From Nitrospira sp. (lineage in GTDB: Bacteria > Nitrospirota > Nitrospiria > Nitrospirales > Nitrospiraceae), in assembly GCA_015904045.1 (NCBI GenBank), contig JABMDG010000021.1:23450-46487 (forward strand): 23,038 nt of DNA, written 5' to 3'. How positions within the stretch are numbered: position 1 is the stretch's first letter; the number at the start of each line of letters is the position of its first letter. Shown piece by piece: positions 1,999 through 22,971 of this stretch. The position numbers were made by a program, and so were the translations under genes. Below the pieces are notes generated by a model that was not told the DNA's origin, did not search any database, and worked only from the letters and a program-made list of their open reading frames with translations.

Positions 1999-2028
1999 GG
2001 CCTTCTTGAGAGCGTCTCGATGCTCGGC

Positions 2029-2056
2029 CTACTGGCTACTGACCACTTACCAATGT
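2029..2056 (-). repeat. Short heptamer array at the broken 5' end of the aldo/keto reductase
   Basis: Four consecutive seven-base units read ctactgg, ctactga, ccactta, ccaatgt on the plus strand. On the minus strand they resemble the GTCAGTG/GCCAGTA units of the array at 3508-3591. The in-frame stop that truncates the aldo/keto reductase (2029-2031) is formed by the first unit. The last unit merges with TACCA-ATG-TGGTA, a small dyad upstream of the malic enzyme start. Confidence 0.5.
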
Positions 2057-2091: not shown

Positions 2092-3525
2092 ATGAACGAC
2101 ACCGGTCCCTATTCCAATTACCGCCTGACAGTCCGGCTGGAGCTCGCGAATAAGCCCGGTGTCTTTGCCCGCGTGGCGGCGCTGCTGGCCGAAGAACAAG
2201 CCAATCTCGGCGCGGTTGATATCGTCTCGGCGACGAAAGCCGCCATGATTAGGGACGTGACTTTCGACGCGCAGAGCGAGGCGCATGGCAAGCAGGTGCT
2301 GGCCCGGCTTGCCGCGCTGCCTGATGTCACAGTGCTCTCGGCCTCCGATCGTATTTTTCTGCTGCATCTCGGCGGCAAGATTCGAGTGGAGGGGAAGATT
2401 GCGATCAGTACGCGGAACGTCCTCTCGATGGTCTACACGCCCGGCGTCGGCCGTGTCGCCCAAGCCATTGCGCAGGACAAGTCCAAAGCCTATGCGTTCA
2501 CCAGTAAAAGCAACAGTGTGGCGATCGTGACGGACGGGTCGGCGGTGTTGGGGCTGGGCAATCTCGGCCCGGAAGCAGCGCTGCCGGTAATGGAAGGCAA
2601 AGCGATGCTGTTCAAAGAGCTGGCCGGTATCGATGCCTGGCCGCTTTGCCTCAATACGCAGGACCCGGATGCGATCGTGCAGATCGTGCAAGGGATCGCG
2701 CCGGGATTCGGCGCCATCAATCTGGAAGATATCGGCGCGCCCCGCTGTTTTGAGATCGAGCGACGGCTGAAACAATTGCTCGATGTGCCGGTCATGCATG
2801 ATGATCAACATGGGACGGCTGTGGTCATCCTGGCGGCCCTCACGAACGCGCTACGGGTAGTCGGAAAGCGGATGGAGCAGGTGCGTGTTGTCGTCAACGG
2901 GCTCGGCGCAGCGGGCACGGCCTGCTGCCGAATGTTGCTGGCGGCCGGCGTGTCGCATCTGCTGGGCTGCGATAAGGAAGGCATCATCCTGTACGGTGAG
3001 GCTGAGCAATTGCGGGCGTGCCGGGCCGATCTCGCTGCTTGTCGTACTCCGGATAATCCGAGGGGGACGCTGCGTGATGCGCTGAAAGGTGCTGATGTGT
3101 TCATCGGCCTGTCAGTCGGGAATATTCTGAGCGCGGAGGATCTCGACGCGATGGCCACGGACCGGATCGTCTTCGCGATGGCGAATCCGGATCCGGAGGT
3201 CTCGCCGGATCTGGCCGCGTCGCACTGCCGTGTCTTTGCCACCGGACGATCGGATTATCCCAACCAGATCAATAATGCGCTCGCATTTCCAGGCATCTTC
3301 CGAGGAGCGCTCGACGTGCAAGCCGCCGAGATCAACGAGGCGATGAAGTTGGCTGCTGCCAATGCCCTGGCTCATACGATCCCCGAAGGCGCGGTGAGTG
3401 AGGATTACATTATTCCCAGCCTCTTTGACAAAACGGTCGTTCCAAACGTGGCCCACGCTGTCGCGGCGGCTGCTCGAGACACAGGCGTAGCGCGCCGGCG
3501 GAACAAAGCGAAAAGTGAAATGTGA
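2092..3525 (+). CDS. Malic enzyme with N-terminal ACT domain
   Basis: A 477-residue cytosolic oxidoreductase converting malate to pyruvate and CO2 with NAD(P)+. Residues about 11-85 form an ACT domain (LELANKPGVFARVAALL), a ligand-binding regulatory module absent from the simplest malic enzymes. The catalytic part follows: Tyr115 in VYTPGVG, Lys170 in MEGKAM, metal-binding Glu212-Asp213 in NLEDIGAP and Asp237-Asp238 in HDDQHGTA, then the Rossmann glycine motif NGLGAAG at 269-275. AGGAGAGG lies 12 bases before the ATG. The gene is monocistronic and divergent from the aldo/keto reductase. Its last codons (AKSEM and the TGA at 3523-3525) lie inside a tandem heptamer array, so the extreme C-terminus appears to be repeat-derived. 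Choice of NAD or NADP cannot be read with confidence. Confidence 0.93.
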   Translation: MNDTGPYSNYRLTVRLELANKPGVFARVAALLAEEQANLGAVDIVSATKAAMIRDVTFDAQSEAHGKQVLARLAALPDVTVLSASDRIFLLHLGGKIRVEGKIAISTRNVLSMVYTPGVGRVAQAIAQDKSKAYAFTSKSNSVAIVTDGSAVLGLGNLGPEAALPVMEGKAMLFKELAGIDAWPLCLNTQDPDAIVQIVQGIAPGFGAINLEDIGAPRCFEIERRLKQLLDVPVMHDDQHGTAVVILAALTNALRVVGKRMEQVRVVVNGLGAAGTACCRMLLAAGVSHLLGCDKEGIILYGEAEQLRACRADLAACRTPDNPRGTLRDALKGADVFIGLSVGNILSAEDLDAMATDRIVFAMANPDPEVSPDLAASHCRVFATGRSDYPNQINNALAFPGIFRGALDVQAAEINEAMKLAAANALAHTIPEGAVSEDYIIPSLFDKTVVPNVAHAVAAAARDTGVARRRNKAKSEM

Positions 3526-3591
3526 GGGGTGAGTAGTCAGTGGTAAGCGGCCAGTAGTGAGTAGCTAGTGGCGAGTGGTCAGTGGCGAAGA
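3508..3591 (+). repeat. Tandem heptamer array, left arm (about 12 units)
   Basis: Counting in sevens from 3508 gives gcgaaaa, gtgaaat, gtgaggg, gtgagta, gtcagtg, gtaagcg, gccagta, gtgagta, gctagtg, gcgagtg, gtcagtg, gcgaaga. The rough consensus is GYRAGTR, and every unit starts with G. The malic enzyme stop codon (3523-3525) is inside the third unit. It is the left half of an opposed pair with 3676-3738. Confidence 0.8.
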
Positions 3592-3641
3592 ACTCCCAGC
3601 ACGTCCGGGGCATCGGCTCTTGCTGTGGCCGTCATAAACAG

Positions 3642-3673
3642 AGAGGGAGTCTCCCTTCCCGAAGACTCCCTCT
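3642..3673. terminator. Perfect 11-bp stem-loop between convergent genes
   Basis: The arms agagggagtct (3642-3652) and agactccctct (3663-3673) are exact reverse complements around a 10-base loop. The hairpin sits midway between the ends of two convergent genes, malic enzyme and the DUF3501 gene, and midway between the two opposed heptamer arrays. There is no T-run on either side, so a bidirectional intrinsic terminator is plausible but not certain. It could instead be the core of a repeat element bounded by the arrays. Confidence 0.5.
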
Positions 3674-3675
3674 GC

Positions 3676-3738
3676 GATCACATCTTACTCTTCACCACCT
3701 ACCACCTGCTACGTGCCACTCACCCCTTACCCTCTCAC
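3676..3738 (-). repeat. Tandem heptamer array, right arm (about 9 units)
   Basis: Counting in sevens from 3676 gives gatcaca, tcttact, cttcacc, acctacc, acctgct, acgtgcc, actcacc, ccttacc, ctctcac. On the minus strand this is a run of GGTRAGT-like units, the same theme as the array at 3508-3591 but in the opposite direction. The sequence between the arrays (3592-3675) holds the perfect stem-loop and no gene. Confidence 0.75.
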
Positions 3739-3768
3739 GTCAGGCAGGTCCCGAAGCCCCTTCTGGCG

Positions 3769-4350
3769 CTAAATCCCACTGTGGTACAATGCGCACGTCT
3801 TATCAGCGGATGAGCTATGCCTTTTTCTACGAGCAAGTACATCAAGTTCCGCCAGGGAATGCAGACGCGCATCGGCAAAGGCTTCTTTCATCGCGGTTGT
3901 CGGCCGGAATCGGACGAAATGGACGGCGCTGATCTTGGTCTCATGGCTGTGGCCGCCCTCGAACTCCGCAAACACCTGCTCACCGTTCGCCGTGATCGCC
4001 AGCGTCTGGCCGCGATCCAGCCCCATGAACCGGTCGAGCCACTCTTTCATCTTCGCTTCTTCGGTAATCTCAATCAAGAGTGTCGCACGCAATTCATCCA
4101 ACCCGGGCAGCAGCTCATTATACACATCCAACTCGTCTTGCACTTTGGCGGGATCGATGATGCGCTCAACTCGAATCATCTCTTGAATCTGAAAGAGCAG
4201 CGTCTCCCGATTCTCAAATACCAGGGTGATCAAGGGACCGACGAAGATCCGCCGCTTCCGCTTCAGCTCGATAATACGGGCCCGAAAGGCTTCCCGTTGC
4301 CGTTCATAATCCTGCGTGGACAGCAAATCTTCCCGTACCAGTCGTTTCAT
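3769..4350 (-). CDS. DUF3501 family protein
   Basis: A 193-residue soluble protein of unknown biochemical function. It matches the DUF3501 pattern: an N-terminal helical part with YERQREAFRARIIELK and RRIFVGPLITLVFENRET (about 15-51), QIQEMIRVERI at about 54-64, an ELDVYNELLPG segment near 73-83 and a C-terminal beta region (AITANGEQVFAEFEGG). No metal-binding cysteine pairs or membrane segments are seen. The start has a GGAGG site seven bases upstream, and the gene begins 22 bp after the Fe-S protein gene, so it is the last gene of the rubrerythrin operon. DUF3501 genes usually travel with exactly these two partners, which points to a role in peroxide or oxygen stress. The last 25 residues (Lys/Arg/Ser-rich) do not look like a conserved end. 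Confidence 0.82.
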   Translation of the reverse strand: MKRLVREDLLSTQDYERQREAFRARIIELKRKRRIFVGPLITLVFENRETLLFQIQEMIRVERIIDPAKVQDELDVYNELLPGLDELRATLLIEITEEAKMKEWLDRFMGLDRGQTLAITANGEQVFAEFEGGHSHETKISAVHFVRFRPTTAMKEAFADARLHSLAELDVLARRKRHSSSADKTCALYHSGI

Positions 4351-14070: not shown

Positions 14071-14083
14071 AGGCGCCACAGTT

Positions 14084-14170
14084 CGTGTCTCGTGAAACGT
14101 GAAGCGTGAACCGCAAAAGGTAACAAGTGGTGTTGTTTCAGGAATACCCTTCACGTTTTACGTTTCACGT
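14084..14170. repeat. Opposed heptamer arrays in the divergent intergenic region
   Basis: Left units: cgtgtct, cgtgaaa, cgtgaag, cgtgaac, cgcaaaa (14084-14118). Right units: ttcacgt, tttacgt, ttcacgt (14150-14170). The right arm is the reverse complement of the left with three mismatches in 20 bases, and 31 bases separate them. Same architecture as at 3508-3738 and 5678-5758, with a different unit sequence. Confidence 0.75.
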
Positions 14171-14225
14171 CTCCCGCCCCCCTATGGCACTGGACTTGCT
14201 GAAATCATCTCCGAGGAATCGAGAG

Positions 14226-22404: not shown

Positions 22405-22950
22405 CTATATATTGAGCAATTTTGCTCCCTTCACTGCCTTGAGAATCATCTCGGCCGCTTCATTCGCGGAAAGTTGTGTCGTGTCTATGACGAGTTCTGG
22501 CTTGAGCGATGCCTCATAGGGGTCTTGCAACCCTGGGACAGTCGTCGATTCACCCCGCTGACCTCTCCGATACGTCCCTTTGTAGTCGCGCTGCATGGCC
22601 AGTTCCAACGGACATTCCACCGCCACCTCGATGAAGCGGGGAATCAGGGTCCGGGCGAAATCCCGATAGGCCCGTCGATTGGCTGTCGCATCGAAGATTA
22701 CCGTTACTCCGTGCTCCACCAGTCTCGCACCCATGAATGCCAACGCGCGATAGAAGAGATCCCGCTCCTCATGCGAATAAGTCGGGGCTGGAGTGAGAAT
22801 GCGCCTGACGGCATCGGACTCCAGGACCTCGACCACGTAACCCAAGCCTTCGAGCTGAGGTCTCAGCGCCGCAACGATGGTGCTCTTGCCCGATGCAGGC
22901 AGACCGGTGAGCCAGATGGCAAACGCCTTTGAGGATTCGTCAATCGTCAT
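22405..22950 (-). CDS. cysC: Adenylylsulfate kinase
   Basis: A 181-residue enzyme phosphorylating adenylyl sulfate to PAPS with ATP, in sulfate activation. Walker A is GLPASGKST at 16-24; VLESDAVRRIL at 42-52 replaces the usual LDGD-xxR motif with ESD; FIEVAVECPLELAMQRDYKG and DPYEASLKPEL are the conserved core and lid. The start at 22950 lies within a heptamer repeat, so the first five residues (MTIDE) are repeat-coded and there is no clear ribosome site; the real start could differ slightly. No other sulfate genes are in the window. Because the LDGD motif is altered, a related P-loop kinase is a possible alternative. Confidence 0.85.
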   Translation of the reverse strand: MTIDESSKAFAIWLTGLPASGKSTIVAALRPQLEGLGYVVEVLESDAVRRILTPAPTYSHEERDLFYRALAFMGARLVEHGVTVIFDATANRRAYRDFARTLIPRFIEVAVECPLELAMQRDYKGTYRRGQRGESTTVPGLQDPYEASLKPELVIDTTQLSANEAAEMILKAVKGAKLLNI

Positions 22951-22971
22951 GGGTCATTCGTCAATCGTAAA
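22937..22971 (-). repeat. Heptamer array across the adenylylsulfate kinase start
   Basis: Five consecutive units on the plus strand: tcgtcaa, tcgtcat, gggtcat, tcgtcaa, tcgtaaa. The exact 13-base string attcgtcaatcgt occurs at 22935 and again at 22956, 21 bases (three units) apart. The start codon (22948-22950) is in the second unit. Confidence 0.65.

Follow-up and report, generated by a model that had tools for sequence, protein, structure and literature searches.

Opposed heptamer arrays at the end of a malic enzyme gene

The window, by which we mean the whole stretch of Nitrospira DNA analysed here (23,038 nucleotides), carries a malic enzyme gene whose end overlaps a pair of opposed arrays of seven-base units, set on either side of a short core that contains a hairpin. 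Further arrays of the same period lie elsewhere in the window. The features are listed below; genomes used for comparison are designated by G numbers.

2022..2054, minus strand: further heptamer array just 5' of the malic enzyme gene, where the alignment to G017 breaks
2092..3525, plus strand: malic enzyme with an N-terminal ACT domain (Pfam PF00390, PF03949 and ACT families)
3508..3591, plus strand: left heptamer array, 12 units of GTNAGTN or GTGANNN type, lag-7 z 6.19
3592..3676, no strand: core of 85 bp, with related cores in G017 and G048
3642..3673, no strand: perfect 11-bp hairpin within the core, arms 3642-3652 and 3663-3673, 10-nt loop
3677..3739, minus strand: right heptamer array, 9 units, the left-array theme on the opposite strand, z 3.58
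14084..14182, no strand: second opposed pair, built of CGTGAAN-like units at 14084-14118 and 14146-14182
22405-22950, minus strand: APS-kinase-like gene, its 5' end overlapped by the array at 22937-22968
22937..22968, plus strand: single array, GTCAWTN-like units, reaching into the 5' end of the APS-kinase-like gene

The first-pass annotation had described twelve left and nine right heptamers facing each other, and both counts were borne out by units running in phase. Identity at a lag of 7 was found at 49 of 77 positions in the left array (shuffle mean 23.1, z 6.19), while lags 5, 6 and 8-11 gave only 12-23 identities; the nine in-phase units of the right array gave 31 of 56 (z 3.58, p 0.0005). 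The opposed arrangement stood as described, with one small correction to its limits: the right array in phase ends at 3739, not 3738. The spacer between the arrays measures 85 bp. When the left arm was compared with the reverse-complemented right arm, 34 ungapped identities were counted, where shuffles averaged 27.6 (p 0.009). The perfect 11-bp hairpin reported earlier was also present, and a hairpin scan of the core counted 13 pairs once two extra pairs in the loop were included. Because the arrays lie on opposite strands and point inward, either strand, and any transcript of it, can form one long stem-loop. RNA folding of positions 3508-3738 gave z values of -4.55 for the plus strand and -5.64 for the minus strand, with 0 of 200 shuffles as good.

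The malic enzyme reading frame ends at 3525 and its stop codon falls within the left array, so that the array encodes the final codons of the protein, in agreement with the earlier remark that its end is repeat-coded. On the minus strand, the core hairpin gave two overlapping terminator-like matches (a GC-rich hairpin followed by a T run; shuffle mean 0.2), and on the plus strand, that of the malic enzyme, there was none between 3450 and 3900; this terminator test concerns the core and not the arrays. A sigma-70 scan of 3450-3900 found no promoter on either strand, including the gap after the array, and the window element had no Rfam match at gathering level. The second opposed pair behaved in a comparable way, with lag-7 z values of 5.2 and 4.9 for its arrays and a fold z of -5.5 for positions 14080-14185. 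Scanned with the settings W28/T20, the whole window yielded five arrays at lag 7, none at every other lag from 4 to 13, and one each at lags 14 and 15.

Period-7 arrays in the genus and beyond

Relatives of the same genus stand in for the window's own genome in all genome-wide statistics. The period-7 excess that the first-pass annotation had proposed to look for was seen in these relatives. Across 400 kb of G017, 13 arrays were found at lag 7 and none at lags 4, 5 and 10-13, with 1, 3 and 5 arrays at lags 6, 8 and 9, respectively. We also counted clusters, defined as any tetramer found three times at one fixed spacing. This gave 470 clusters at spacing 7 in G053 against 42-88 at spacings 5, 8, 10, 11 and 13; the corresponding figures for spacing 7 and other spacings were 84 and 6-24 in G017, 46 and 4-14 in G052, and 42 and 4-16 in G030. 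GTGA with its complement was the commonest of the 256 tetramers at period 7 in G053, and the preferred words of G017, G052 and G030 differ from it. No lag-7 excess was present in the 100 kb scanned from each of G022 and G058 (0 arrays). Exact 7-bp tandem units were thus found well above chance, in many copies and mostly in intergenic positions, and these arrays support the link to the heptanucleotide repeats known as STRR that had been drawn from the window alone.

The pattern (GTGANNN)3GTGA was found in 62 of the 79 genus genomes (overlapping matches counted), with 165 matches in G053 where the reversed control had 15, and in 101 of the 245 genomes searched across the phylum. Reversed-control matches were equal or higher in some phylum genomes, which points to other heptamer families there. 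In some families of the phylum (genomes G084, G093 and G104), the reversed unit AGTGNNN outnumbers GTGANNN. The loci of 80 malic enzyme matches showed seven-base arrays in cyanobacteria, an acidobacterium, a Cohnella and others as well; at the 78 non-Nitrospira loci, lag 7 gave 25 arrays, more than the 3-8 found at lags 8, 10, 11 and 13 yet within the 18-29 range of the coding-prone lags 6, 9 and 12. One dense region was noted in G017, where five heptamer arrays or pairs are packed into 4 kb, inside an apparent nucleotide-sugar gene cluster (L128 3466-7311).

Orientation of the pairs and their placement in gene gaps

G053 is a single contig with a completeness of 99% and a contamination of 6%. 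The 62 GTGA arrays in 900 kb of this genome formed 26 close pairs, and all 26 were convergent (+/-), with none in the -/+, ++ or -- arrangement. Their spacers ranged from -1 to 41 bp and their loops looked unrelated by eye; two pairs have one right arm in common, beside apparent duplicated gene copies. GAGG pairs comprised 10 +/-, 0 -/+ and 8 same-strand neighbours in G030, and 3 +/- and 0 -/+ in G052. GTCA pairs were mixed (5 +/- and 3 -/+ in G053, 1 and 0 in G017, 1 and 1 in G052), an orientation that is not clean partly because GTGAC units contain TGAC.

Most elements in the sampled parts were intergenic, 9 of 12 in G017 and 31 of 36 in G053, the gene positions of the latter coming from simple gene calls made for this analysis. 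Co-directional gene neighbours flank 27 of the 31 intergenic G053 elements; 22 of these 27 start close to the upstream stop codon, from 18 bp ahead of it to 8 bp past it, and 23 end 1-27 bp ahead of the next start. Among the 24 G053 pairs assigned to a gap, 18 sit in a co-directional gap with less than 30 bp left over, a kind of gap that makes up 2.1% of the remaining intergenic bases. The gap of the window element itself is not tight, as the next conserved start (3818) is 78 bp away. Different units can occupy the same gap: between nusG and rplK, viewed by eye in 30 of the 77 matching genomes, G053 has a GTGA pair, G021 a TTGAATG-like pair, and a few genomes GTCAGCT-like pairs.

The malic enzyme junction and the core in relatives

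The closest named matches of the window's malic enzyme were two Nitrospira records with 81 and 82% protein identity. The enzyme was present in 55 of the 59 genomes searched, with identities of 96% in G017, 95% in G048 and 91% in G001. A comparison of the junction with relatives, as had been suggested at first pass, showed the array to be missing from 28 of the 30 relatives read and present in the two closest, G017 and G048. The best lag-7 count (of 28) was 23 in G017, 21 in G048 and 20 in the window, and 9-15 at the other 28 loci. Most array-free relatives have, by eye, a gap of ~100 bp followed by a conserved downstream gene. The G017 junction element is orthologous to that of the window, with the same core and one heptamer unit fewer.

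Upstream of the malic enzyme gene, G048 carries an array-core-array in which the window core is inverted, G017 carries two facing arrays and an apparent relic of the core end, and in the window there is one array; the G048 and G017 arrays differ there by about four units in length (by eye). Inversion of the malic enzyme gene was rejected as the cause of the core position in G048, since the genes on either side are in unchanged order. A third copy of the core, diverged and again accompanied by arrays, is found at a separate G017 locus (C2:320269). Found with its arrays at three different places in the clade, the core behaves as a dispersed unit. We rejected the idea that it is a multicopy repeat: a 106-bp search matched 3 of the 79 genomes, one of them by a 33-bp partial match (G034, E 0.0026). 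A core pattern allowing three mismatches matched in 53 of the 79 genomes, with 0 mismatches only in G017 (2 sites) and G048 (1 site), and the remaining matches listed, all with 3 mismatches, numbered 84 against 77 for the reversed-pattern control (hand count).

Two further observations concern the neighbourhood. The gene at 3818-3876, conserved after the malic enzyme gene in relatives, is truncated to ~59 bp in the window and passes into the DUF3501 gene of the minus strand (3769-4350); the array lies ~140 bp from this rearrangement break. On the other side, at 625-2054, G017 has an open frame of 1259 aa (L130 9299-13078), of which the window keeps only the part matching the far end (aldo/keto reductase region); the window-G017 alignment breaks at the array 2022-2054, and G017 carries 2.37 kb extra.

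Turnover between close relatives and the cobalamin riboswitch arm

G052 and G030 are 96% identical across 152 kb of aligned blocks, and these blocks contain none of the arrays examined, 10 from each genome. In the collinear part only, 0 of 5 (G052) and 0 of 7 (G030) arrays were aligned, with ~62% of intergenic 40-bp windows aligned; this sample is one genome pair with few elements and arms that are not independent, and 8 of the 20 arrays fall outside the collinear part.

One of the differences could be given a direction. At G052:C41:181842-181929, 88 bp with two facing arrays occupy a place where G030 has 9 bp. A cobalamin riboswitch (RF00174, 90.7 bits) spans this place, with the pair at the tip of a variable arm; the flanks in G030 are 99% identical to those of G052. 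The riboswitch query matched in 73 of the 79 genomes, and 12 loci, including that of G052 itself, were compared: among the 11 relatives, the arm tip is a 9-nt loop in eight and carries pairs of other sequence in G021, G017 and G047. Judged from these alignments, the 88-bp pair that replaces a 9-nt loop in G052 reads as a gain, polarised by the eight relatives. No target-site duplication was evident by eye at this site or at other sites that differ between G052 and G030. Rfam searches of five genomes (G052, G030, G021, G017 and G047) showed that the second cobalamin riboswitches of G052 and G017 also have pairs in the arm, and that of G030 has none. The arrays make up both sides of a peripheral stem in the cobalamin riboswitches of G052, G021, G017 and G047.

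Along joined stretches of G030 and G052 (L316, L306, ~24-38 kb), at least seven G030 gaps have GAGGNNN arrays by eye, at which G052 has other arrays or none, and unit type seems clustered by neighbourhood. A separate dispersed hairpin-like element of roughly 100-200 bp was also noticed in both genomes (G030 joined stretch 100476-100686 and other gaps); at one gap it occupies the place of a G052 heptamer pair.

Candidate makers of the arrays

We considered the possibility that the composite is a miniature mobile element, its arrays being terminal repeats, inserted in trans by a transposase or a RAYT-like protein. Both the presence of the core with arrays at three clade loci and the existence of filled and empty sites are consistent with this. 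On balance we hold it to be unlikely. The core has only two copies in G017 and one in G048, the other 77 of the 79 genomes giving one 33-bp partial match, and three-mismatch matches in other genomes are at control level; the loops of the 26 G053 pairs are dissimilar to the eye, and the polarised gain exchanged 88 bp for 9 bp with no evident target duplication. Y1_Tnp (PF01797), the transposase family examined, had 0 matches in G053, G017, G036 and G067, despite 165, 21, 68 and 44 pattern matches, respectively (G036 is 77% and G067 87% complete), and its gene counts were uncorrelated with pattern matches over the 79 genomes (Spearman 0.03). The earlier suggestion that the arrays bound a mobile unit finds support in so far as core and arrays behave as a dispersed unit, and none in the transposon sense. 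REP and REPIN sequences are intergenic palindromes able to form hairpins; they have a fixed, tagged form and are linked with a Y1 transposase (RAYT). Unlike these, the Nitrospira arrays have no fixed palindrome, and no link to a Y1 transposase was found.

Gene counts of Ku and RVT_1 were likewise uncorrelated with pattern matches over the 79 genomes (Spearman -0.01 and 0.02). RAYT, Ku and reverse transcriptase were rejected as required makers, G053 having 0, 1 and 0 matches to them. Neither Ku nor RVT_1 was matched in G071, G036, G068 and G067 (G071, G036 and G067 being 77-87% complete), and the Ku-positive genomes G058 and G077 are without pattern matches.

Unit structure and folding

The G053 arrays that were found by periodicity and have GTGA in their consensus (239 units) departed from their own consensus in 6-12% of cases at positions 1-4 and in 26-31% at positions 5-7. 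A phase test on all period-7 arrays, made without motif choice, found no unequal conservation in G053 (p 0.86) or G017 (p 0.71) and gave p 0.07 and 0.11 in G052 and G030, so that the claim of position-dependent conservation is limited to the GTGA family. Conserved words at a fixed spacing raise the possibility that the arrays are paired sites at which a DNA- or RNA-binding protein recognises a four-base word once per 7 bp, with selection preserving both word and geometry. The better conservation of positions 1-4 and the rank of GTGA and its complement at period 7, both in G053, agree with this idea, and heptamer pairs in Geobacter are annotated as global regulator sites in the part of that report drawn on here (PMC2700814). 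It nonetheless seems improbable to us, as the preferred word varies by genome and locus (GTGA, GAGG, GTCA, GTNAGTN) and regulator sites would not be expected to turn over so quickly between ~96% identical genomes.

Plain replication slippage of neutral intergenic DNA, with hairpins that have no role, would fit the difference in unit number between orthologs (window and G017) and the existence of perfect arrays such as (GTGAAGC)n in G296. It would not lead one to expect the exceptionless convergence of the GTGA sample or variation that depends on position in the unit, and likeness was no higher between neighbouring units than between distant ones (0.577 against 0.612). A slippage-driven process, one of the origins entertained at first pass, is thus at odds with the GTGA arrays when taken alone, and we give it little credence in that form.

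Arms of the same element resembled each other more than swapped arms did at positions 5-7, with a likeness of 0.543 against 0.462 in register (p 0.0015), and likewise at the best shift (0.605 against 0.545, p 0.01). Minimum free energies of the 26 G053 pairs ranged from -23 to -51 kcal/mol, and five elements from four genomes gave fold z values of -4.1 to -6.2. Sense and antisense folds of the G053 pairs did not differ (p 0.71), nor did real arms pair significantly better than swapped ones (p 0.16); these two results give no sign of selection at the RNA level.

Discussion

Taken together, the data lead us to favour, with a probability of roughly 0.55, the reading that the window feature belongs to a widespread class, that of convergent heptamer-array hairpins, which are born or replaced whole by replication-linked fold-back and slippage and are kept where an RNA hairpin is tolerated. 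In these hairpins, a degenerate 7-bp unit (GTGANNN, GTCANNN or GAGGNNN; GTNAGTN in the window) is repeated in two short arrays that face each other on opposite strands. Fold-back template switching at the hairpin tip may copy one arm onto the other, and slippage may gain or lose 7-bp units. The hairpin would survive at sites where it does little harm, for instance immediately behind a stop codon, ahead of a ribosome-binding site or at the end of a riboswitch's variable arm. Arrays similar in sequence could swap the DNA between them, and we infer that the core reached its three places by exchange of this kind. Each hairpin would then be born as a unit by host replication, and fold-back combined with slippage appears to be the most economical account of origin. 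Fold-back alone does not account for the GTGA arm always being the 5' arm. Any benefit, for example in protecting or separating operon messages, is hypothetical.

Very unlikely, in our view, is an unrecognised telomerase-like host activity that would extend 3' DNA ends by GTGANNN-type heptamers where DNA is broken or forks stall, both break ends being extended before joining, or one folding back, to give 5'-GTGA...core...TCAC-3'; it would yield products convergent on either strand with unrelated cores and a few bases replaced and, if true, would explain the strict polarity left open by slippage and selection. No candidate gene was found, however, and the numbers of RVT_1 and Ku genes do not follow the arrays over the 79 genomes.

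The fold-back and slippage reading can be set beside heptamer repeats known from other bacteria. Arrays of GGGAATC in Xanthomonas lie near stop codons on the coding strand, are paired convergently 70 times in one genome and 75 times in another, and vary in length between orthologs, according to the sections used here of Rehm et al. 2015 (PMC4692102). On the same sections, the opposed pair itself is not new, contrary to the earlier description of a distinct composite; the Nitrospira arrays share the convergent pairing (in the window and in 26 of 26 pairs of G053). The Xanthomonas unit is nearly fixed and G-quadruplex-capable (GGGNATC), and 83% of its sites are also found in a second species (PMC4692102), whereas the Nitrospira unit is degenerate, differs by species and locus and shows fast site turnover in the one pair compared; its GTGANNN and GTNAGTN units have no regular runs of three G by eye. 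Convergent pairs also arise where the units lack regular G-runs, and this speaks against quadruplexes being their common cause.

A second parallel is the P6b element of the Nostoc tRNA-Leu intron, where Class I and Class II repeats flank a stem, seven-nucleotide repeats are gained and lost, and one repeat class is replaced wholesale by another, as set out in the parts cited from Kaasalainen et al. 2015 (PMC4476775). Arrays in Nitrospira also form a peripheral hairpin of a structured RNA, here the cobalamin riboswitch; unlike the single locus in one intron described in those parts, they occupy many gene gaps as well as the riboswitch arm. Geobacter metallireducens has sites of tandem heptanucleotide repeats in classes that are mostly paired, one paired class having the consensus MTYCTGA and GGACCGG being a separate family of 49 elements (PMC2700814, in part). 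Paired tandem-heptamer sites are thus common to both organisms, those of Geobacter being interpreted there as regulator binding sites. STRR heptanucleotide repeats occur in filamentous cyanobacteria such as Calothrix (as cited in PMC4692102); they are tandem heptanucleotides like those of Nitrospira, and an opposed pair around a core is not described for them in that portion of the text. The portion consulted of a sequence-pattern survey (PMC4060949) does not mention Nitrospira, that of PMC5854607 has nothing relevant to the Nitrospira arrays, and among the best-ranked matches in the mostly open-access literature naming Nitrospira no title concerned such arrays. On the parts of these sources considered here, facing heptamer pairs and repeat stems are already known elsewhere, and the Nitrospira form is a variant with degenerate units that are, by eye, mostly free of G-runs.

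As hairpins are gained and lost as whole units between close relatives, their origin is open to direct study, and Nitrospira makes the birth of a hairpin from 7-bp units testable: it offers a polarised gain, genomes with more than 100 pattern matches and several unit types in one genus. The insertions in cobalamin riboswitches, in addition, offer a function that can be measured.
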